Of a stretch of DNA of 37,124 nt, positions 3,499 to 37,062 are shown piece after piece. Source of the DNA: Nonlabens antarcticus. Its GTDB lineage: Bacteria > Bacteroidota > Bacteroidia > Flavobacteriales > Flavobacteriaceae. Location of the stretch: the NCBI RefSeq assembly GCF_015356755.1, contig NZ_JADFCO010000055.1, positions 1 to 37,124 on the forward strand, read 5' to 3'. The position numbers and the translations under genes are program-made. Under the pieces are notes generated by a model. The model ran no database searches. It saw nothing but the letters and a program-made list of their open reading frames with translations, and was not told the DNA's origin. Numbering within the stretch: the stretch's first letter is position 1; each line of letters begins with the position of its first letter.

Positions 3499-4038
3499 AT
3501 TAAGAATGATGAATCCGAAATCATAAAAGGAACGTAGTTTCTGAAATGCGTTACGCGACGTACTCCAAAACATCAAAAAGCTCCATTTTATAAACCAGAT
3601 CTAGCTCCCTCTCCGTTGGAGAGGTCTGGGGTGAGGTGTTGTGAGTATTTGAAATTATATCTGGATTCACTTTAGATTTCGGGTTTTGTAAATCTTCAAC
3701 CCATCCGTCTCACGCATGGCTATCGCCATCGCGTGATCCACCTTCCCTCATCTCATCTGAGGTAAGGAGTTTTTAAACCTGCAATTAAGAGCAAAATTGG
3801 TAATCGGCAAGCAAAATTTGCTATTGCCTGAAAGGAGTCGAAGGCAGCAAATTGAGAATTGGTAATGTTGCTAGAAAACTATTCTTGAACGGCCTGTAGT
3901 AGAAGGGTTGAACTCTATCTGGCATTTGAAAAGTCTTTTCTCTTTAGTCTAGCTTCTTAATTCGTCATTAAGTCAATTGTCTATCTTCAAGAAGTCAGCC
4001 GTCTGCTGTCAACAAGTCGACAAGTCAACTGTCAATAA
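3499..4038. other. Intergenic region with a degenerate repeat element
   Basis: 540 bp without a gene. It holds the palindromic element at 3605-3774 and, at about 3940-4030, an AT-rich stretch with recurring AAGTCA and GTCAAC words, apparently low-complexity. No RNA gene recognised. Confidence 0.6.
3605..3774 (+). repeat. Degenerate palindromic element (E0), variant left half
   Basis: The right half, about 3691-3774, matches the right half of the elements at 8973-10000 and 36263-37062: CTTCAACC-type start, ATCCGTC, a hairpin CACGCATGGC / GCCATCGCGTG (one bulge), ATCCACC, a second hairpin and AAGGAGTTTTT. The left half is different: a CCTCTCC-GTT-GGAGAGG hairpin followed by TCTGGGGTGAGG. It is either a sister subfamily or a recombinant. 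No gene lies between the halves. Confidence 0.6.
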
Positions 4039-5212: not shown

Positions 5213-8065
5213 ATGCCGAAAAGAAAAGATCTCAAATCCATATTATTAATAGGCAGCGGCCCGATCATTATAGGTCAAGCATGTGAATTTGACTATGCAG
5301 GCTCCCAAGCGCTGCGCTCGCTCACTGAGGAAGGAATAGAAACTATTCTTATCAATTCAAACCCGGCAACCATCATGACAGATCCATCGATGGCAGATCA
5401 TGTGTATTTGTTGCCATTGACGACTAAATCGTTAAGAAAAATCCTTGCAGAACACCCACAGATTGATGCAGTATTGCCCACCATGGGAGGTCAAACAGCA
5501 TTAAATTTATGTATTGAAGCAGACGAGAAAGGAATCTGGGAAGATAATAATGTAGAGATTATAGGAGTCGATATTGACGCGATTAATATCACAGAAGATC
5601 GGGACAAGTTCAAAGGTTTAATGCATAAAATAGGGGTGCCAGTGGCACCTGCAAATACGGCAAATTCATTTTTGAAAGGAAAAGAAATTGCACAGGAGTT
5701 TGGTTTTCCATTAGTAATTCGACCATCGTTCACATTGGGAGGTTTCGGCGCAAGTTTTGTCCACAACGAGGAGGAGTTTGAAGAATTATTGACCCGTGGT
5801 CTAGAAGCATCGCCCATTCATGAAGTCTTGATTGATAAAGCTTTATTGGGATGGAAGGAATATGAACTGGAATTGTTACGGGATGATAACGACAACGTTG
5901 TGATCATTTGTACGATAGAAAATATGGATCCCATGGGAATCCATACTGGTGATTCTATAACCGTTGCGCCAGCGATGACATTATCAGATCGTACCTACCA
6001 AAAAATGCGTGATATGGCGATTCACATGATGCGCAGTATCGGTGAGTTTGCGGGTGGTTGTAATGTTCAATTTGCCGTTAGTCCTGACGAGAATGAGGAT
6101 ATTATTGCCATTGAAATCAATCCTCGAGTGTCGCGTTCTAGCGCATTAGCCTCAAAAGCGACAGGTTATCCTATTGCTAAAATAGCTTCAAAACTAGCTA
6201 TAGGATATACGCTGGATGAGCTGGACAATCAAATTACAAAATCGACCAGCGCTCTTTTTGAACCAACTTTAGACTATGTAATTGTTAAGATTCCGCGATG
6301 GAATTTTGATAAGTTTGAGGGGTCAGACCGTAAACTGGGATTACAGATGAAGTCTGTAGGAGAAGTGATGGGAATAGGCCGTTCCTTTCAAGAAGCACTA
6401 CATAAAGCCACCCAATCTCTAGAGATTAAACGCAATGGACTGGGCGCAGATGGTAAAAGTTATACCGATTACAATCAGGTGATCGAGAAGTTGACCCATG
6501 CAAGTTGGGATCGCGTTTTCGCACTGTATGATGCTGTTGCCATGGGAATCTCATTGTCGAGAATCCACGAGATCACGCGCATCGACATGTGGTATTTGAA
6601 ACAATTTGAGGAGCTTTATGAACTTGAAGTAGAAATAGGGAAGTTTGAAATAAGTTCGCTTTCGCGAAAGCTGCTCCTAGAAGCAAAACAAAAAGGATTT
6701 GCTGATCGACAAATAGCACACATGTTGGGCTGTAAAGAGTCTGAGGTTCATGACAAGCGTGATGAAATGAACATCAATCGCGTTTATAAACTTGTAGACA
6801 CCTGTGCGGCAGAATTTAAGGCAGAAACGCCTTACTACTACAGTACGTTTGAAGCAGATGTTGAAACACCAGATGGCGTGAGGTCTGCGCAGAACGAAAG
6901 TATTGTAAGTGACAAGAAAAAAGTGATCGTTTTAGGTTCTGGACCAAACAGAATTGGACAGGGAATCGAGTTTGATTACTGTTGTGTTCATGGCGTTTAT
7001 GCCGCTCAGGAATGTGGCTATGAAGCGATTATGATCAACTGTAATCCAGAAACCGTTTCTACCGATTTTGACACAGCAGACAAACTTTATTTTGAGCCTG
7101 TTTTCTGGGAACATATTTATGACATTATTCGTCATGAAAAGCCAGAAGGTGTGATCGTACAATTGGGCGGACAAACAGCCTTAAAGCTAGCCGAAAAACT
7201 ACACCGTTACGGCATCAAGATTATAGGAACGAGTTATGATGCGCTGGATCTTGCAGAAGATCGCGGACGTTTTTCAAAATTATTACAGGACATTGATATT
7301 CCTTTTCCAGAATTTGATATTGCGACCACTCCAGATGAGGCATTGAGAGTTTCTGATAAGCTGGACTTCCCGATTTTGGTAAGGCCATCCTACGTTCTAG
7401 GTGGTCAGGGAATGAAGATTGTAATCAATAAACAGGAACTTGAAGAACACGTTGTGGACATCCTACGCAAGATTCCAAACAACGTTTTGTTACTTGATCA
7501 TTATCTTGATGGTGCGATAGAAGCAGAAGCAGATGCTATCTGTGATGGAGAAAATGTGTACATCATAGGAATTATGGAACACATCGAACCATGTGGTGTT
7601 CACTCTGGAGATTCTAATGCGTTGTTACCACCATTTACTTTGGGCGATTTGGTAATGCAGCAAATAAAGGATCATACCAAGAAAATCGCACTTGCACTCA
7701 AAACGGTTGGGTTGATCAATATACAATTTGCAATTAAGGATGATATCGTTTATATCATAGAGGCAAATCCGCGAGCGTCTAGAACGGTTCCTTTTATTGC
7801 CAAGGCTTATGGCGAGCCGTACGTGAATTATGCTACCAAAGTAATGCTAGGTGTAAATAAGGTAACCGACTTTAATTTCAACCCACAATTAAAGGGTTAT
7901 GCGATCAAGCAACCCGTTTTCTCCTTTAATAAATTCCCGAATGTCGACAAACGATTGGGACCAGAGATGAAATCCACCGGAGAAAGCATTTTGTTTATTG
8001 ACGACTTAAAAGACGATGAATTCTACGAACTGTATGCTAGACGTAGGATGTATTTGAGTAAGTAA
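5213..8065 (+). CDS. carB: Carbamoyl phosphate synthase large subunit, without MGS domain
   Basis: Makes carbamoyl phosphate from bicarbonate, ATP and ammonia delivered by CarA; feeds PyrB and arginine synthesis. Two homologous ATP-grasp halves are visible. The first opens with ILLIGSGPIIIGQACEFDYA and TMGGQTALN; the second, from about residue 565, has VIVLGSGPNRIGQGIEFDYC and QLGGQTALK, with INPRVSRSSALASKATG in the first and EANPRASRTVPFIAKAYG in the second. It is 950 residues against about 1070 in E. coli: it stops at FYELYARRRMYLSK, so the C-terminal allosteric MGS-like domain that binds UMP/ornithine is missing. I recall this shortened form in other flavobacteria. A CTTTCGCGAAAG palindrome lies in the coding region at 6658-6671. 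No carA in the window. Confidence 0.96.
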   Translation: MPKRKDLKSILLIGSGPIIIGQACEFDYAGSQALRSLTEEGIETILINSNPATIMTDPSMADHVYLLPLTTKSLRKILAEHPQIDAVLPTMGGQTALNLCIEADEKGIWEDNNVEIIGVDIDAINITEDRDKFKGLMHKIGVPVAPANTANSFLKGKEIAQEFGFPLVIRPSFTLGGFGASFVHNEEEFEELLTRGLEASPIHEVLIDKALLGWKEYELELLRDDNDNVVIICTIENMDPMGIHTGDSITVAPAMTLSDRTYQKMRDMAIHMMRSIGEFAGGCNVQFAVSPDENEDIIAIEINPRVSRSSALASKATGYPIAKIASKLAIGYTLDELDNQITKSTSALFEPTLDYVIVKIPRWNFDKFEGSDRKLGLQMKSVGEVMGIGRSFQEALHKATQSLEIKRNGLGADGKSYTDYNQVIEKLTHASWDRVFALYDAVAMGISLSRIHEITRIDMWYLKQFEELYELEVEIGKFEISSLSRKLLLEAKQKGFADRQIAHMLGCKESEVHDKRDEMNINRVYKLVDTCAAEFKAETPYYYSTFEADVETPDGVRSAQNESIVSDKKKVIVLGSGPNRIGQGIEFDYCCVHGVYAAQECGYEAIMINCNPETVSTDFDTADKLYFEPVFWEHIYDIIRHEKPEGVIVQLGGQTALKLAEKLHRYGIKIIGTSYDALDLAEDRGRFSKLLQDIDIPFPEFDIATTPDEALRVSDKLDFPILVRPSYVLGGQGMKIVINKQELEEHVVDILRKIPNNVLLLDHYLDGAIEAEADAICDGENVYIIGIMEHIEPCGVHSGDSNALLPPFTLGDLVMQQIKDHTKKIALALKTVGLINIQFAIKDDIVYIIEANPRASRTVPFIAKAYGEPYVNYATKVMLGVNKVTDFNFNPQLKGYAIKQPVFSFNKFPNVDKRLGPEMKSTGESILFIDDLKDDEFYELYARRRMYLSK
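6658..6671. repeat. CTTTCGCGAAAG palindrome inside carB
   Basis: GCTTTCGCGAAAGC, 14-bp perfect palindrome in the coding sequence (reads SLSRKLL). Confidence 0.9.
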
Positions 8066-8972: not shown

Positions 8973-9168
8973 ACTCCTCGCCTAGAAAAAGGCGAGAACA
9001 GATTGTTTTGGCCGTTCATGGCAAAGCGATCAGGAGTGGTTGAAGTTGTAGTAAGGATTATTATAATTGAGAACTAGGCTCTAGTTTACTGCAACTTCAA
9101 CCTATCCGACCAAAGTCAGCTATCGCTTACTTTGCCCACCTTTCCGTTTTCTCGGAAAGGAGTTTTTT
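8973..9168 (+). repeat. Palindromic element E1 (short form)
   Basis: 196 bp. Left half: ACTCCT, hairpin CTCGCC-loop-GGCGAG, a second arm GATTG...GATC, then AGGAGTGGTTGAAGTT. Right half: AACTTCAACCTATCCG, hairpin CAAAGTCAGC-TATC-GCTTACTTTG (one mismatch), CCCACC, hairpin CTTTCC...GGAAAG, AGGAGTTTTTT. GGTTGAAGTT of the left half is complementary to AACTTCAACC of the right half; ACTCCT at the start is complementary to AGGAGT at both later positions. Confidence 0.8.
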
Positions 9169-9398: not shown

Positions 9399-9594
9399 AC
9401 TCCTCGCCTAGAAAAAGGCGAGGACAGATTGTCTTTGCCTTTCCCGGCAAAGCAATCAGGAGTGGTTGAAGTTGCAGCAAAAATTATTTGCAATTGATAG
9501 TTAGAGTTAAGTTCACTGGAACTTCAACCTATCCGACCAAAGTTTGCTATCGCTTACTTGCCCACCTTTCCGTTTTCTCGGAAAGGAGTTTTTT
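9399..9594 (+). repeat. Palindromic element E2 (short form)
   Basis: 196 bp, same plan as the copy at 8973. Here the second left arm is perfectly paired, CTTTGCC-TTTCCC-GGCAAAG flanked by GATTG / CAATC. The right-half arm is CAAAGTTTGC-TATC-GCTTACTTG. The spacer between halves is about 45 nt and carries no gene. Confidence 0.8.
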
Positions 9595-9798: not shown

Positions 9799-9994
9799 AC
9801 TCCTCGCCTAGAAAAAGGCGAGGACAGATTGTCTTGGCCGTTCATGGCAAAGCGATCAGGAGTGGTTGAAGTTACAGCAATTCTTATTTGCAATTGATAG
9901 TTAGAGTTAAGTTCACTGGAACTTCAACCTATCCGACCAAAATCAGCTATCGCTAACTTTGCCCACCTTTCCGTTTTCTCGGAAAGGAGTTTTT
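9799..9994 (+). repeat. Palindromic element E3 (short form)
   Basis: 196 bp, closest to the copy at 8973 in its left half (TGGCCGTTCATGGCA arm) and to the copy at 9399 in its spacer. Right-half arm CAAAATCAGC-TATC-GCTAACTTTG. It lies 55 nt beyond the stop of the thioesterase gene, so it may also form the end of that transcript. Confidence 0.8.
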
Positions 9995-17084: not shown

Positions 17085-17325
17085 GTTAAAGGTTACACTT
17101 TGGCCCCACTCGCAACCAAATAATGGTTGTTTGTTTTTCTTTCGCGAAAGCAAAATAGGAAAAAGCCAAAGTGTATTAAAAGGGAATCTGGTGTAACTCC
17201 AGAACTGTTCCCGCAACTGTAAAGAATCGATGCTTTCACATCGCCCAGGAAACTGGGATTTTATGATACGTCACTGAGAAATCGGGAAGGCCATAAAATA
17301 TTTAAGTCAGGAGACCTGCCTCAAC
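17085..17325 (+). promoter_or_regulatory. Cobalamin riboswitch
   Basis: Recognised from the conserved core: GGGAATCTGGTG (17182-17193), CCAGAACTG, the B12-box-like CCCGCAACTGTAA (17210-17222) and GTCAGGAGACCTGCC (17306-17320). An outer helix ACACTTTGGC (17095-17104) pairs with GCCAAAGTGT (17165-17174). The peripheral arm inside that helix contains a CTTTCGCGAAAG palindrome. It precedes the BtuB-like receptor gene and should lower its expression when cobalamin is abundant. No T-run terminator follows the aptamer, so control of translation is more likely than of transcription. Confidence 0.93.
17139..17150. repeat. CTTTCGCGAAAG palindrome inside the riboswitch
   Basis: 12-bp core only (flanked by T and C), in the peripheral arm enclosed by the ACACTTTGGC / GCCAAAGTGT helix. 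Confidence 0.85.
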
Positions 17326-17443
17326 AATAATAATTGTAAAACCTTCGGGATAAAGGTGGTGCGATGGAACAGGCTGATGCAAAGTCTGTGAATGGGTGTG
17401 TTTTATTCTAAAACATATGCTATACCATCTTCTCACGTTCTCC

Positions 17444-17461: not shown

Positions 17462-19420
17462 ATGATCAAAAACATTATTTTAGGAAGTTTTCTTGCAGCC
17501 AGCGCGGTTGTATTTGCTCAAGTAGATACCACACAAGTAAATCTTGAGGATGTGGTGGTAACTGCCGGCACTAAGTTTGAAACCAAACGAAAAGACAGCG
17601 GGAAACCTGTCATCAAGATTACAAGATCAGATATCGATAAACAAAGCGCTGCTAGTATCGCAGACTTATTGAACCAGTTTGCAGGAATTGAAATTAATGG
17701 TGCCCGCAGTAATGCAGGTCAAAATCTAGGTTACTTTATCCGTGGGGGTAATAATAGACAGGTATCGTTTTTAATTGATGGAGCGCAGGTAAGCGATGCC
17801 AGTAATATCGCAAGTGATTTTGACTTACGCCTTATCAATCTAGATCAAGTAGAAGAAATAGAAATCCTAAAGGGAGCATCAAGTTCGCTTTATGGTTCTA
17901 ATGCAAGCACCGCAGTGATCAATATCAAATTAAAGGAAGCTGCTAGGGAAAAGCTAAAAGTAACTTTGTCTTCATTTTTAGGAACTAATACCCCTTCTGA
18001 GTCTTCCATGAGTGGTGTTGATGAGTTCAATACAAATATATATGCCAGTGGTAGAGCCGCGAACGGATTTACCTATGCTGCAGGATTTTCTCATCAATCT
18101 ACCGACGGTTTGAGTGCTGCAGAGGCTACTGAAGCTGCACCAGCAAATAAATCTGACGCATTCAATCGCATAAATGTTCTGGCCCGTATAGGCTATGATA
18201 ATGAACGCAACTTCAAATTGAGCAGTTACGTCAGCTTTGACGAGTATAAAGCTGAATTTGACAATTTTGATTTGACAGATGCAGATAATGAAACGTATAG
18301 CAAGCAACTGCGTTGGGGAACTAACGTTAATTGGAAATATTCTGATAAGGGTGAGTTGGTTTATGCAGATGTGAGCACGCACACTAAACGAGATACTCGC
18401 AGTGATTTTCCTAGCATTTTCAATGCAGATGGATACTCCTTAGACCTTTATAATAAGTATGGTTTTCAATTAGGTGAAAGCAGCCAGATCAAGACTATTC
18501 TAGGTTTCAATTTCAGAACAGATCAATTTGAAAGTTTTTCAGTTCCCTTTGGTGCTAACGGGTTTGAGCAGGATGCAGATACCGATGATGTGAATGCGCA
18601 AATTTATGATCCCTATGTGAATGCTGTTTACATGAGTGATTTTGGGTTGAATTTAAATGCAGGATTGCGTTACAACAATCATAGCGAGTATGATGGTCAG
18701 CTGGTTTATAGCCTGAATCCATCATATGCATTTGAGTTGGGAGCAACCACATTGAAAGCTTACGGTAGTTATAGTACGGCCTACATTACACCTAGTTTAT
18801 TCCAATTGTTTGACACTAGTTTTGGGAATGAAGAACTACAACCTGAGGAAAATAGAACGATAGAAGTTGGAGCAGAAATATTTAGTGGCAGTAGCAGCCT
18901 TTCGGTAACGTTTTTTAATAGAAAGGAAGAAAACCTGGTAATATTTACCACTATTGATCCGGTTAATTTTATTTCACAATATCAAAATGTTGACAATGAA
19001 CTCACAGCTCGTGGTGTTGAGGTAGCTGGTCAGACCAGTTTGTTTAATAATGTTGTTCAACTTAATGGGAACTATTCATTTACAGAACGCGATAACGCAC
19101 CTTTAATCGCTAAAATTCCAAAGCACAAAGTCAATGGATCTGCCAGGGTTAATGTTTTACCTAGAACTTTTTTAACCGCCAGATATCAATATAATGAAGG
19201 TCGTGGCGATGCATTTTTCAATAACCAGACATTTGCAAATGAAGCAGTAGTTCTAAACAGCTACCAACTGGTCGATCTTGATGCCACTTATAAATTGAAG
19301 AACAAACAAGTCACCTTTTTTGGGGGAGTATCAAACCTATTGAATGATGAGTATCAGGAAATTTTTGGGTATCAAACCAGAGGGCGCAATTATAAAATAG
19401 GAGTGAGGCTGGCATTCTAA
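17462..19420 (+). CDS. btuB: TonB-dependent outer-membrane receptor, cobalamin type (BtuB-like)
   Basis: 652 residues. Signal peptide 1-20 (ends VVFA-Q), a TonB-box region NLEDVVVTAG (27-36), plug domain with ITRSDIDKQSAASIADLLNQ, GYFIRGGNNRQVSFLIDGAQ, VEEIEILKGASSSLYGSNAS, then a beta-barrel ending in the terminal Phe of KIGVRLAF. Transports a large ligand into the periplasm using TonB energy. The short length (about 650), lack of an N-terminal carboxypeptidase-like extension and the upstream cobalamin riboswitch point to vitamin B12. Divergent from the BtuFCD-like operon, which would carry the ligand across the inner membrane. Confidence 0.92.
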   Translation: MIKNIILGSFLAASAVVFAQVDTTQVNLEDVVVTAGTKFETKRKDSGKPVIKITRSDIDKQSAASIADLLNQFAGIEINGARSNAGQNLGYFIRGGNNRQVSFLIDGAQVSDASNIASDFDLRLINLDQVEEIEILKGASSSLYGSNASTAVINIKLKEAAREKLKVTLSSFLGTNTPSESSMSGVDEFNTNIYASGRAANGFTYAAGFSHQSTDGLSAAEATEAAPANKSDAFNRINVLARIGYDNERNFKLSSYVSFDEYKAEFDNFDLTDADNETYSKQLRWGTNVNWKYSDKGELVYADVSTHTKRDTRSDFPSIFNADGYSLDLYNKYGFQLGESSQIKTILGFNFRTDQFESFSVPFGANGFEQDADTDDVNAQIYDPYVNAVYMSDFGLNLNAGLRYNNHSEYDGQLVYSLNPSYAFELGATTLKAYGSYSTAYITPSLFQLFDTSFGNEELQPEENRTIEVGAEIFSGSSSLSVTFFNRKEENLVIFTTIDPVNFISQYQNVDNELTARGVEVAGQTSLFNNVVQLNGNYSFTERDNAPLIAKIPKHKVNGSARVNVLPRTFLTARYQYNEGRGDAFFNNQTFANEAVVLNSYQLVDLDATYKLKNKQVTFFGGVSNLLNDEYQEIFGYQTRGRNYKIGVRLAF

Positions 19421-19557: not shown

Positions 19558-19865
19558 CCTATTCCGATATAGAGTATTTGAAAGTTGCAGTATGATACCT
19601 CAAAACGTGACATATGAGCCAATTAGAGTTCAACTCTGTTCTTAAAATCAATAATTCTGCTAAAGTAAACCGGCAATTAAATCGATAAATAACACGTTAA
19701 ACCGTTTAAATGTAAAATGGTTTGAATTAACTAATATTTTTAAAGCATTGATATAAAGGGTTTTAAACTACTATTTTACACTTAATCGGATTTATAGGTA
19801 TTGTTAACCGATTAATGTTTTGCATATTTGGATATCGAAAGAAGCAATCTTTTAAACCTCTACAT
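19558..19865. other. Upstream region of the first lipoprotein
   Basis: AT-rich, with repeated TTAA-CGATTAA-like words (for example TTAACCGATTAA at 19803) that also occur upstream of the second lipoprotein. ATATTTGGATATCGAA at 19824 is shared, with a one-base shift, with ATATTTGGATCATCGAA at 21455. CATATTTG (19823-19830) is one mismatch from the -7 box and is a candidate promoter. Confidence 0.45.
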
Positions 19866-20885
19866 ATGAAAAATTTTACACTACCTGCCGCTTTACTTTT
19901 TAGCATGGCTGTCCTTGTGTCCTGTTCTACAGACTCTGAAGGAATCGACGACACGAGTAATCCTACCATTGGACCTAAAGTTACCCTGTTTACTGGAAGC
20001 AATACTTCTGGAAAGATAAATATGTACGACATGTCTGACATGCGCAATGTAACTAACAAATCATTTCAATCTACTAGTAGAGACAGCGGTGGTCTTAGGT
20101 TTGATCCTATTCAGGGCAATCTGGTAGAAGCATCCAGATCTGAGAACAACGTGTTAGTTTTTGAAAATATCAACAACAGTCTTGATGGATCTTCACTTGC
20201 TCCCACTTTAAGGTCTGATGTACAGGTGGAAAATCCTAGAGATATCATCATTGCAGGAAATAAAATTATCGTTTCCTCTGATGCCGCTGGTCCTAGAGAT
20301 AGTAACAAGTTTTACGTTTATGATTCTAATGGTGATTCCGTTAAACTTGTAAAAGTATTTGAGACTGGATTCCAGCACTGGGGGATCTTCCTTGCAGGAA
20401 ACACACTGTATGCTGCTATGGATAACAGTGGATCGATCGCTGTATACAACAATTTCTTAAGTAATGATTCTGGAGTGCTTACCGCAAATGATGTATTTCT
20501 AATTGAGGGAGCAAAATCTTTAAGAGGAATAACTTATGATGATATTGAAGATACTCTTTTCCTTGCGGATGTAGGTAACCCACTAGATGATAGTGATGGT
20601 GCAATTCACACTATCAAGAACTTCTCTGTAAAATATAGCGGCATGTCTTCTTATGGTACGATAGAAGCACAAGACATTAAAACAGTTCAAGGGTCAAAAA
20701 GTATGTTAGGAAACCCTATCGACTTGCAATACGATCACATAGGTAAAGTACTATACGCAGCAGAGCGCAGCACTAACGGCGGTATGGCCTTAGCATTTGA
20801 CAATTCTGATGAAGGTGGCGATGTATCTCCTATGATGCAGAAAGCTGTTTCTGGAATCTCAAGCATTCATTTAAACGTAGAGTAA
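19866..20885 (+). CDS. Propeller-like surface lipoprotein, paralogue 1
   Basis: 339 residues from ATG at 19866. Lipoprotein signal with Cys20 (AVLVSC-STDSEG); the acidic residues after Cys could serve as a surface-export signal. The body is made of repeated blade-like units: TLFTGSNTSGKINMYD, EASRSENNVLVFEN, HWGIFLAGNTLYAAMDNSG, SLRGITYDDIEDTLFLAD, NPIDLQYDHIGKVLYAAERS. This is the pattern of a beta-propeller (NHL/YVTN-like). No catalytic motif. An identically long paralogue follows at 21525. Ligand unknown; because it follows the B12 receptor, a BtuG-like role can be asked, but it has its own promoter region and no riboswitch. Confidence 0.82.
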   Translation: MKNFTLPAALLFSMAVLVSCSTDSEGIDDTSNPTIGPKVTLFTGSNTSGKINMYDMSDMRNVTNKSFQSTSRDSGGLRFDPIQGNLVEASRSENNVLVFENINNSLDGSSLAPTLRSDVQVENPRDIIIAGNKIIVSSDAAGPRDSNKFYVYDSNGDSVKLVKVFETGFQHWGIFLAGNTLYAAMDNSGSIAVYNNFLSNDSGVLTANDVFLIEGAKSLRGITYDDIEDTLFLADVGNPLDDSDGAIHTIKNFSVKYSGMSSYGTIEAQDIKTVQGSKSMLGNPIDLQYDHIGKVLYAAERSTNGGMALAFDNSDEGGDVSPMMQKAVSGISSIHLNVE

Positions 20886-20964: not shown

Positions 20965-21524
20965 TTTCATTTTTTAAATCATGGCTTATAGTATCTAAAG
21001 TTGGTATGTAGTACCTGTTTACTTGTCCATAATGCTGCAGGTAATTCGGTTTTTAAATTCTTCACGAGATATTGAATGTTGAGTTTATTAAATGTTTGCT
21101 GCTATTAATCACTTGATAATCATAAATCAAGCTGCGATAGATAGGTAAAGCACAGACTTTATTATCCTTCATGAATACATACGATCCACTAATTGATTGA
21201 GAGCTTTGAAATAATTAGGATTACTTAATAACTCGATTAACCATGATTTAAACCGATTTAAAGCAATTGAAATTGTAAAACAACTTCCATTAAAACATAA
21301 ACAACTTAAAACACCGCCAAAACACACGATTAATCGTTTAAAAACGCATTAATAAATCATTAACATATTTTATAAACCATTGAAAAATAGTTTTTTAGGT
21401 AATTGAAGTGCTCTTAATCGATACTATCGATTTTTAAACGGGTGAAATCATACGATATTTGGATCATCGAACAGTTTTGAACTGTTTTTTAATTCTAACA
21501 ATCTCTACTCTAAACTACTCTACA
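20965..21524. other. Intergenic region between the paralogues
   Basis: 560 bp, very AT-rich, no gene recognised. The 3' part repeats TTTAAACCGATTTAAA-, GATTAATCGTTTAA- and TCGATACTATCGA-like words that resemble the region before the first paralogue, suggesting shared regulation. GATATTTG at 21453-21460 is one mismatch from the -7 box. Confidence 0.5.
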
Positions 21525-22544
21525 ATGAAAAACTTTACCCTACCCGCGATTTTACTATTTGGCGCTGCCTCATTAGTTTCCTGTTCTACAGATTCTGAAA
21601 GTATCGATGCTACAAATGTCCCATTAAGCCTTTCCAAATCCACTTTATTTACTGGAAGTAACACTTCTGGGAAAATCAACATGTTTGATACGTCTAACAT
21701 GAACAAAGTCACAAATAAATCTTTCCAATCTTCCAGTATCGATAGCGACGGTATTCATTATGATCCTATCAACGACTGTTTATTTGAGGCATCCAGATCA
21801 GAAAACAATGTTCTCGTTTTTGAAAACTTAAACAAAACAGCAAATGGATCTGCACTTGCTCCCACCCTTAGATCAGACGTTCAAATAGAAAATCCTAGAG
21901 ATATAGTTGTTTCTGGCAATCGTATTGTTGTCTCCTCTGATGCAAAAAATCCTGGAGATAGCAATAAGTTCTTTGTTTATGAATCTACTGCTAATTCTGT
22001 GAGACTTGTAAATATTTATGAAACTGGAAATCAGCACTGGGGAATTTTTCTTCAAGGAAATACCTTATATGCTGCTATTGATAACAGTGGTAGAATTGCA
22101 GTTTACAACGACTTCTTCTCTAACGCTAGCGGTGTGCTTAACGCAGATGATATGTTACTTATAGAAGGAGCAAAATCATTGCGCGGTGTTACATATGACG
22201 CTGTTGAGGATAGATTATTCCTTGCAGATGTTGTGAACCCTTTAGATGATAGTGACGGAGCAATTCATACCATTGATAACTTCTCTGTGATTTACAGCGG
22301 GATGGAACCTTATGGAGAGATCAAGTCCAACCATATTAAAACGGTATCTGGATCTGGTACAATGCTAGGAAACCCAGTTGACCTTGCCTATGACAATGTA
22401 AATAAAATATTATATGCTGCGGAGCGCAGTACGAATGGCGGTATGGCTCTTGCCTTCAATAACTTTTCAGATGGTGGTAATATGGCTCCTAAAATGCAAC
22501 AGGCTGTTTCAGGAATCTCCAGTATTTATCTAAATGTAGAGTAA
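21525..22544 (+). CDS. Propeller-like surface lipoprotein, paralogue 2
   Basis: 339 residues, same length as the gene at 19866 and about 70% identical by eye, including TGSNTSGKIN, SRSENNVLVFEN, HWGIFLQGNTLYAAIDNSG, NPLDDSDGAIHTI and AERSTNGGMALAF. Lipobox Cys20 (ASLVSC-STDSES). I chose the ATG at 21525 because it gives the same signal peptide as its paralogue; the frame is open from 21459. Divergence is spread along the protein, so the duplication is not recent, yet the 3' untranslated region is almost unchanged. Confidence 0.82.
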   Translation: MKNFTLPAILLFGAASLVSCSTDSESIDATNVPLSLSKSTLFTGSNTSGKINMFDTSNMNKVTNKSFQSSSIDSDGIHYDPINDCLFEASRSENNVLVFENLNKTANGSALAPTLRSDVQIENPRDIVVSGNRIVVSSDAKNPGDSNKFFVYESTANSVRLVNIYETGNQHWGIFLQGNTLYAAIDNSGRIAVYNDFFSNASGVLNADDMLLIEGAKSLRGVTYDAVEDRLFLADVVNPLDDSDGAIHTIDNFSVIYSGMEPYGEIKSNHIKTVSGSGTMLGNPVDLAYDNVNKILYAAERSTNGGMALAFNNFSDGGNMAPKMQQAVSGISSIYLNVE

Positions 22545-34008: not shown

Positions 34009-34048
34009 TACCGCATACCGCATACCGCATACCGCATACCGCATACCG
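34009..34048. repeat. TACCGCA tandem array, 5.7 copies
   Basis: Perfect TACCGCA units, in the first copy of the long direct repeat. Confidence 0.95.
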
Positions 34049-34145
34049 AAAATCAAAATCAAAACTGAAATCTAAAAAAGAGCCATTTCAGCATTCGTTA
34101 TTCCTTGTTCGATATTCTGTGTTCAATTTGAATTATTATTTTTAC

Positions 34146-34208
34146 TTCCAACTTCCAACTTCCGGCTTCCAGTTTCCAGTTTCCAGCCTCCAGTTTCCAG
34201 TCTCCAAT
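34146..34208. repeat. TTCCAAC/TTCCAGT heptamer array
   Basis: Nine 7-mers: TTCCAAC twice, TTCCGGC, TTCCAGT twice, TTCCAGC, CTCCAGT, TTCCAGT, CTCCAAT. Variation is at set positions of the unit. Confidence 0.9.
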
Positions 34209-34340
34209 TCATTACAGATTTTTAATTCCTTAACTGTTCTCGACTGCGCTCGAACTGACATTTGTCTCTATGTCCGAGTAATAAATAAAAATAAAGGTAA
34301 AATCAAATGACATTGATGTATGGATCAGCTTTTTAAATTT

Positions 34341-34387
34341 TACCGCATACCGCATACCGCATACCGCATACCGCATACCGCATACCG
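34341..34387. repeat. TACCGCA tandem array, 6.7 copies
   Basis: Same unit as at 34009 with one more copy, in the second copy of the long direct repeat. Confidence 0.95.
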
Positions 34388-34484
34388 AAAGTCAAAATCA
34401 AAACTGAAATCTAAAAAAGAGCCATTTCAGCATTCGTCATTCCTTGATCGATATTCGGTGTTCAATTTGAATTATTATTTTTTC

Positions 34485-34533
34485 TTCCAACTTCCAACTT
34501 CCAACTTCCAACTTCCAGCCTCTAGTTTCCAAT
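34485..34533. repeat. TTCCAAC heptamer array
   Basis: TTCCAAC four times, then TTCCAGC, CTCTAGT and TTCCAAT; fewer units and a different composition from the array at 34146. Confidence 0.9.
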
Positions 34534-34590
34534 TCATTACAATTTTTTAACTCCTTAACTATTCTTTGCTAGGCCTAAATTGACATTCTT

Positions 34591-36262: not shown

Positions 36263-36845
36263 ACTCCTCGCCTTAGAAAAGGCGAGGACAGATTGGCTTC
36301 GCCTTTTGAGGCGATGCAATCAGGAGTGGTTGAAGGTGTAGCAAATCCAAGTCCTATTCTCAATCTTTAGTAATACTGCAATGACTTTTAATGTCTGCTA
36401 TAACGTGTTGAAGTTCGGCGAAAATGTATTTGTTCTCATATCGTAAAATGGTAATTCCTAAACTTTGCAATTCTTTATCTCTTGCCTCGTCTTTTTCAAA
36501 TTGATCTGGTTCGTTATGATAATCTCCATCCAATTCAATTCCTAACTTGAACTTAGCAGAATAGAAATCAAGTATAAAATTATTGATTGAATACTGTCTT
36601 CTGAACTTAATGGCATCTATTTGACCAGATTTAATATGGCTCCATAAATAGGCCTCAGCAGGTGTCAATTTTTTCCTTAATATCTTTCTGTTTTTTTCAA
36701 GGTATTTAATATTATGAATGTGGGGGCGGCGTTCCATGTTTTGAAGATAGGTGTTTTTTAGGTTTAGCGGATCTTCAACCTATCCGTCTTTGTCGCTCGC
36801 GCGCCAAATCCACCTTTCCCTTTTCTGGGAAAGGAGTTTTTTTTT
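36263..36845. mobile_element. Palindromic element E4 carrying a DUF559 nuclease gene
   Basis: Left half at 36263-36345: ACTCCT, CTCGCC-TTAGAAAA-GGCGAG, GATTG...CAATC arm, AGGAGTGGTTGAAG. Right half at 36771-36845: CTTCAACCTATCCG, arm TTTGTCGC-TCGC-GCGCCAAA, ATCCACC, CTTTCCC-TTTTCT-GGGAAAG, GAGTTTTT. These are the same halves as in the short copies at 8973, 9399, 9799 and 36861, but the spacer of about 45 nt is replaced by about 430 bp containing one gene, a DUF559 endonuclease on the minus strand. Transcription of that gene would start in or near the right half. No transposase, target duplication or other cargo is seen. Confidence 0.7.
36360..36737 (-). CDS. DUF559 (Vsr-like) endonuclease
   Basis: 125 residues, usual length for DUF559. 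Restriction-endonuclease-like fold related to the Vsr mismatch endonuclease: LRKKLTPAEAYLWSHIKSGQ, IKFRRQYSINNFILDFYSA with the first acidic residue, LGIELDGDYHNEPDQFEKDE (E-x-D core and His), ARDKELQSLGITILRYENKY. Presumably a DNA-cutting or nicking enzyme; specificity unknown. It lies entirely between the two halves of a palindromic element, and the start is about 34 nt inside the right half's inner edge. Family members in other Bacteroidota are, as I recall, also often in multi-copy repeat settings. Confidence 0.88.
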   Translation of the reverse strand: MERRPHIHNIKYLEKNRKILRKKLTPAEAYLWSHIKSGQIDAIKFRRQYSINNFILDFYSAKFKLGIELDGDYHNEPDQFEKDEARDKELQSLGITILRYENKYIFAELQHVIADIKSHCSITKD

Positions 36846-36860
36846 GGGAATGTGCTGGTG

Positions 36861-37062
36861 ACTCCTCGCCTTAGAAAAGGAGAGGACAGATTGGCTTCGC
36901 CTTTTGAGGCGACGCAATCAGGAGTGGTTGAAGGTGTTGCGGAGTTTGATTTAATCCTTGTTGTGAAATAAGACTTGGTGGAACTTCAACCTTTCCGTCT
37001 CACAAACGGCTGTTGCCGTTTGTGATCCACCTTTCCCTTTTCTGGGAAAGGAGTTTTTTTTT
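36861..37062 (+). repeat. Palindromic element E5 (short form)
   Basis: 202 bp, directly after the DUF559-bearing copy, with a 15-nt gap. The left half has one change in the first hairpin (CTCGCC / GGAGAG). The spacer is about 42 nt with no gene. The right half has the strongest arm, CACAAACGGC-TGTT-GCCGTTTGTG, perfectly paired. Both this copy and E4 are preceded by GAATGTGCT, so the true left boundary may include it. Confidence 0.8.

Follow-up and report, generated by a model that had tools for sequence, protein, structure and literature searches.

A DUF559 nuclease gene within a palindromic repeat of Nonlabens antarcticus: a candidate homing-like, hairpin-ended mobile element

Introduction

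The 37,124-nucleotide stretch of Nonlabens antarcticus DNA analysed here (the window; contig C55 of a 66-contig, 3.27-Mb genome) contains several copies of a palindromic repeat, one of which is split by a gene encoding a DUF559 (PF04480) nuclease. Do the gene and the repeat form a single mobile unit, or has an endonuclease gene come to rest in a repeat of the host? Our preferred answer, to which we give about two chances in three, is that the DUF559 nuclease and its structured, mutually inverted ends constitute one homing-endonuclease-like mobile unit, whose nuclease-less derivatives amplify in tandem. A wider proposal, held only tentatively and at less than even odds, is that DUF559 proteins are the mobility enzymes of phylum-wide hairpin-ended elements that enter coding sequence in frame without splicing, with the ends becoming linkers and the nuclease becoming a domain of the host protein. 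The original prediction from this DNA, a nuclease-linked mobile element, is supported overall, and mobility itself remains an inference.

Repeat copies in the window

The split copy (E4; 36263–36845, forward strand) consists of a left half, the DUF559 gene in antisense orientation, and a right half. The left half (36263–36343, forward strand; profile E 1.3e-25) carries two hairpins, with ACTCCT...AGGAGT and GGTTGAAG, and the right half (36765–36841, forward strand; profile E 3.2e-18) carries CTTCAACC, a terminal CCTTTCC/GGAAAGG hairpin, and a T-run. The spacer had been said to hold the DUF559 gene alone, and the 421 bp between the halves indeed contain one complete gene of 125 aa (36360–36737, reverse strand). 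Four compact copies are oriented on the forward strand: E1 (8973–9167), E2 (9399–9593), and E3 (9799–9994), which follow each other in the same direction, and E5 (36861–37058), which lacks the gene and is arranged head-to-tail with E4. Compact copies measure ca. 195–200 bp, and each copy combines a pair of left-hand hairpins, a GGTTGAAG...CTTCAACC stem, and, on the right, a CCTTTCC...GGAAAGG hairpin with T's after it. The original prediction had listed these five copies, with ACTCCT/AGGAGT ends and GGTTGAAG/CTTCAACC in the halves. All five copies and both motif pairs were confirmed; the list had missed the copies in the rest of the genome and a degenerate copy at about 3579–3777 (forward strand), whose right half is clear at 3691–3774.

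In BLAST, E5 matched the left half of E4 with an E value of 1.2e-31 and E2 with an E value of 5e-22, matches strong enough to exclude chance as the source of the repeat family. A single copy used as the query matched 38 places in the window's genome, where the ca. 200-bp repeat occurs many times and often in tandem.

The window contains other features of its own. A 16-bp palindrome, CGCTTTCGCGAAAGCG, occurs eight times (seven exact; 0.00 expected), at 6657, 10647, 14779, 19537, 22666, 25840, 31433, and 35521, and a query stretch containing it gave dozens of matches in four congeneric genomes. Imperfect intergenic repeats of ca. 187 nt with a spacing of 325 bp are located at 34009–34587. A cobalamin riboswitch (17113–17337) lies shortly upstream of a long gene at 17462 that has the appearance of a TonB-dependent receptor gene, and a Flavo-1 RNA is found at 217–313. 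Two neighbouring similar genes (19815–20885 and 21459–22544) contain repeat pairs with 71–75% identity over 83–300 nt.

The DUF559 protein

The window protein matched PF04480 with an E value of 6.1e-28 (97.3 bits against a gathering score of 20.6), and its nearest named DUF559 relatives are from Nonlabens (59% and 55%). The structure predicted by AlphaFold (mean pLDDT 89) has a Vsr/I-Bth0305I-like nuclease fold. When it was used as the query in Foldseek, 3hrl (E 1.7e-6) and the catalytic fold of I-Bth0305I (E 2.7e-5; TM 0.64 by query length) were matched, and Vsr was matched weakly (E 0.022). A profile match to I-Bth0305I (3r3p; E 4.3e-5) covered part of the core; in this alignment, E68 and D83 match, D57 and H74 are aligned with different residues, and the N-terminal E falls outside the covered part. 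The invariant E, D, H, and D of DUF559 follow the same order as in the EDxHD motif, and we do not claim membership of that family. The accessible part of PMC9403480 places a DUF559-containing gene in the EDxHD homing family in a discussion of inteins.

An alignment of 35 diverse relatives had eleven invariant columns. All 71 full domains, in-gene copies included, shared ten invariant residues (R, T, E, W, D, E, H, D, R, and R), and the window protein has the family's invariant residues, which, judging from the predicted fold, are inferred to be catalytic. The dN/dS values were 0.00–0.20 in 23 of 24 computable pairs and 0.32 in the remaining pair. In most of these pairs dS exceeded 1, and values for 15 window-family pairs and five others could not be computed because synonymous sites were saturated.

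Predicted fold of the repeat

Covariation was evaluated in 19 compact copies of the window's genome over five named helices. Standard pairs occupied 89.5% of the cells, and two-sided changes were present in 26 cells compared with a mean of 9.2 after shuffling (none of 500 shuffles was as high). Counted by pairs, two-sided changes (ten pairs) were less distinctive; 13 of the 500 shuffles reached this number, and one slid version of the structure has 11. The covariation score was 0.145, against 0.083 for shuffles and 0.04–0.06 for slid structures. Most of this support is due to the terminal hairpin and the hairpins of the left half; the long-range helix between the halves is conserved and displays little covariation. 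Since Rfam gave no match to the element above the gathering score, a known structured RNA was dropped as the identity of the repeat; at E ≤ 1, two sub-threshold ribosomal-leader matches were the only ones near the window element. The suggestion that folded or cruciform ends are the substrate of the nuclease finds no support in any of the data obtained here.

The window family in congeneric genomes

In a sample of 23 congeneric genomes, a covariance model detected the repeat in 15, with 61 matches in the window's genome, 45 in G010, 39 in G003, and none in eight; these counts include opposite-strand echoes and both halves of split copies. A search for DUF559 gave 51 match rows in 14 of the 23 genomes, which correspond to 31 free-standing copies after fragments were merged and 17 in-gene places were set aside. 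Window-family halves bracket nine of the free-standing copies, a left half alone accompanies one, and the other 21 lack both. The prediction would have been refuted if DUF559 genes were not found between the halves more often than chance, and with 9 of 31 copies bracketed it was not; a binomial estimate (assumed chance 0.003, 46 genes) is not relied on.

The nine bracketed copies are distributed over seven genomes (one each in G000, G005, G006, G011, and G014, and two each in G010 and G003). Both bracketed genes of G003 are broken, and the copy with the left half only also belongs to this genome. All nine genes run antisense to the left-to-right orientation of their halves. When ORFs of at least 70 aa within flanks of ca. 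1.5 kb were compared, the bracketed loci had no neighbour genes in common (the right flank of the window copy ends with the contig); at L047, the only resemblance was a 24% match with loci of a different family. By this comparison, window-family units occupy unrelated sites in different species.

In a 71-row tree, the full-length window-family nucleases and the left-half-only copy formed one clade of seven rows (92/75). This tree rests on few columns, and support for its metH group was only 46/81. In a 41-row tree, the window-family nucleases fell into a 12-row clade (100/100) alongside five relatives without the halves, and two changes, not one, were needed for the window-family group. Close nuclease relatives at L043, L044, L052, and L152 have no window-family halves.

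Comparison of the copies also shows that those without the nuclease retain both ends and accumulate in tandem. Copies frequently stand head-to-tail; in G010, 12 left and 17 right halves occur within 5.6 kb. At L307, also in G010, eleven right-half units are repeated with an exact 227-bp period, and no left halves were recognised.

These distributions bear on the alternative that the host supplies the palindromes, as terminator-like repeats or repeats mobilised by other enzymes, and that DUF559, as a homing gene, invades them as a safe harbour. Compact copies far exceed nuclease copies in G000, compact copies are present in G015 (eight covariance-model matches) without any DUF559 match, and the right end, a hairpin with a T-run, resembles an intrinsic terminator. 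However, the sole window-family repeat matches of G005 and G006 adjoin the DUF559 gene, so that the ends travel with the gene there. Furthermore, distinct nuclease lineages have distinct ends, and a palindrome of the metH insert, described below, is almost limited to insert ends and missing from empty metH alleles. Host repeats are the alternative that survives best, and we still consider them unlikely.

Occupied and empty sites

A further ground for refutation would have been that element sites never vary between close strains. G022 has five sites with window-family halves, two of them with the right half only, and at the matching loci of G016 no half was recognisable by the same profile scan that was positive in G022. 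For each of four sites, the two flanks match G016 on a single contig (97/90, 88/87, 82/95, and 88/85% identity); for the fifth (L303), only one flank was matched. In the alignments, arrays were missing from G016 at L300 and L301, where the alignment was readable; it was poor at L302, and the broader claim depends on the half-profile scan. Sites do vary between relatives, as they also do at metH between G001 and G008. Comparison of genomes shows units at some sites and their lack at those sites in relatives.

Three of the five DUF559 domains of the window's genome lie in frame within other genes, identified by Pfam as those for methionine synthase (metH), leucyl-tRNA synthetase (leuS), and histidinol dehydrogenase (hisD). 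Hairpin-bearing inverted repeats flank the copies in metH (score 25) and leuS (24.5); the hisD copy scored 9.5, below the threshold, and both of its ends were recognised by eye. The reading frames of metH and leuS pass straight through the inserts. The metH site was occupied in five and empty in five of the ten genomes with the gene, and the leuS site was occupied in four and empty in 17 of 21 readable genomes. The hisD–hisC junction, read by eye in 21 genomes, was full in five, had both ends without the nuclease in one (G009), had the right end only in three (G001, G008, and G014), and displayed none of these states in 12. The predicted pairing of a full element with its internally deleted derivative was accordingly seen at one orthologous site, in this sister lineage, and not in the window family. 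As separate observations, several genomes without the DUF559 element have another small palindrome-like stretch (GATTCCGC...GCGGAATGACA) in the hisD–hisC gap (e.g., L099, L101, L105, L107, and L112), and the GMILG-to-EKMSKSK stretch of LeuS (L063–L084) is highly variable in length and in sequence across 21 congeneric genomes, which gives the impression of repeated domain replacement.

The flanks of the occupied metH site of G001 are 94.5% and 95.3% identical to those of the empty site of G008, and the empty linker of G008 has the same protein sequence as that of G006. With up to two mismatches, the metH palindrome gave 12 matches in the 23 genomes, ten of which mark the ends of the metH insert, in the five occupied genomes and no others. 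Being nearly confined to insert ends, the palindrome is part of the element and not a pre-existing repeat. At the two extra matches, in G005, the site is not spanned by an open reading frame, and no element stands out clearly. On this comparison, the metH ends belong to the unit and not to the host site. A direct CTCAGA repeat at the metH ends of G000 was not found in G001 and was rejected, as was co-conversion near the G001 insert, for which the signal was too weak (0.88–0.92 in the closest upstream windows against ca. 0.95 farther away).

Rfam at its gathering threshold gave no match in 16 in-gene loci, in which no intron was recognised, and among 13 fusions Pfam reported no intein domain at E ≤ 1e-5. 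By these searches, the DUF559 gene is not surrounded by a recognisable group I or II intron or intein.

In four of the five occupied genomes, the metH inserts and the host gene had diverged to a similar degree (0.72–0.82 and 0.76–0.82, respectively), so that the metH lineage looks old and mostly vertical. Such divergence, together with two other free DUF559 families located at orthologous sites, is what would be expected of mostly vertical, decaying relics, with a single entry of DUF559 and its ends, later inheritance and loss, and retention today for some role in the host, for instance in mismatch repair; the accessible part of PMC12907096 proposes that the Caulobacter DUF559 protein VsrA acts in this process. 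On the other hand, the leuS insert of G017 has different palindromes and groups elsewhere in the tree, which implies at least two separate entries into the leuS site. The window-family sites are unshared among seven genomes, and the repeat sites of G022 have no halves in G016. We regard vertical relics as improbable, slightly more so than host repeats.

DUF559 copies across the phylum

Of 395 genomes sampled across the phylum, 222 contain a PF04480 match. Pfam-supported fusion hosts include type ISP proteins (L159 and L143), a DNA methylase (L160), an MmeI-like methylase (L164), HsdR (L168 and L171), LeuS at a second site (L163), a PurL-like amidotransferase (L182), and a GATase protein (L141). 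More fusions to leuS, HsdR, and metH were recognised by eye, the metH ones lying at the same linker. Six of these loci (L159, L160, L164, L168, L171, and L143) have DUF559 in frame within restriction-modification-type proteins of several families. These comparisons show sister lineages in frame within housekeeping genes and restriction genes, without a recognised splicing element.

Inverted repeats scoring at least 14 flanked 42 of 69 DUF559 copies, a set from which fragments, duplicates, and copies with short flanks had been dropped. The same score was reached at 0.2% of 1000 window positions, in 7.4% of 1017 pairs that combined flanks of different copies, and at 2.2% of 1000 positions of loci L063–L139, some of which contain DUF559 inserts. 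For the named loci (78 of 80 used), inverted repeats were present at 37 of 78, compared with 0.9% of 925 controls from the same loci. In the two sets, 27 of 69 and 41 of 78 copies lacked a strong inverted repeat at their flanks by this test, and the palindromic ends differ between DUF559 lineages. In a crude look at the flanks of 16 compact copies, neither a target-site duplication nor a target consensus was visible; the flank script placed the left end in 12 of the 16 and the right end wrongly in many, and absence of a duplication is not proven. Phage records gave two weak matches in 50,697, and plasmid records gave 37 matches in 72,556, all below 60% identity.

Proposed mode of spread

Under the homing-like reading, the DUF559 nuclease would cut or nick unoccupied target DNA, and repair templated by the element-bearing copy would insert the unit. 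Both steps are inferred; neither cleavage nor transposition has been shown. The terminal hairpins may act as recognition or annealing ends. Within genes, the survivors would be in-frame insertions in tolerant linkers, the translated palindromes serving as linkers. Compact copies may be non-autonomous derivatives mobilised in trans by the nuclease, a further inference, and could have been amplified via recombination between head-to-tail copies. Copying by cutting and repair is favoured by the homing-endonuclease fold, the invariant residues, the dN/dS values, and the recurrent occupancy of fixed sites. A fast selfish cycle is disfavoured by the host-like divergence at metH, the two free families at orthologous sites, and the compact copies of G015 without DUF559.

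It is very improbable that a RAYT/IS200-type Y1 transposase moves the repeats with DUF559 as passenger cargo: REP–RAYT is a known analogue and Y1_Tnp matches occur in 17 of the 23 genomes, the window's included, but G005, G006, G015, and G020 have window-family matches and no Y1_Tnp match, the three Y1_Tnp matches of G000 lie at least ca. 43 kb from any same-contig element among the matches listed, and the nuclease is under purifying selection even within other genes.

Comparison with known systems

DUF559 with palindromic ends and in-frame DUF559 elements were not described in the accessible full-text literature, which leaves out most subscription journals, and the family looks like an undescribed one as far as the papers searched go.

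In REP and REPIN systems with RAYT, short palindromic repeats are tied to an enzyme gene between repeats, and the enzyme is a Y1 transposase. The DUF559 element likewise links short palindromes to an enzyme gene between them, but its enzyme has a Vsr fold. A Y1/HUH transposase accompanying the palindromes, which would define a REP–RAYT system, is not what the element gene encodes, and four repeat-bearing genomes have no Y1_Tnp. The predicted resemblance to RAYT holds as an analogy and goes no further. MITEs are non-autonomous copies that share both ends with autonomous partners, and nuclease-less DUF559-element copies similarly have both ends of full copies; unlike MITEs, no transposase was found at the DUF559 element, and no target-site duplication was seen.

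The EDxHD/I-Bth0305I homing endonucleases of group I introns are alike in predicted fold, with the profile match covering part of the core, and in the pattern of occupied and empty fixed sites in conserved genes. The DUF559 protein differs in being a nuclease domain only, without the extended DNA-binding region reported for the EDxHD family in the accessible part of PMC3943268. The DUF559 element differs further in having hairpin ends and nuclease-less derivatives, with no recognised intron or intein.

To our knowledge, no mobilising enzyme has been identified for the Rickettsia palindromic elements (RPE). These elements, according to the accessible part of PMC10969869, are palindromes in frame in unrelated genes, as are the ends described here; no sequence comparison was made, and the difference is that some copies of the DUF559 element carry a nuclease gene. 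The present results link an endonuclease to bacterial palindromic repeats, place an apparent mobile element in frame inside housekeeping proteins without a recognised intron or intein, and offer a concrete, testable role for DUF559, a widespread family of unknown function. If the wider proposal is true, DUF559 would provide an enzyme of the sort lacking for Rickettsia-type in-frame palindromes, and if the nuclease moves the repeats, the element would provide a model for in-frame palindromes such as RPE.
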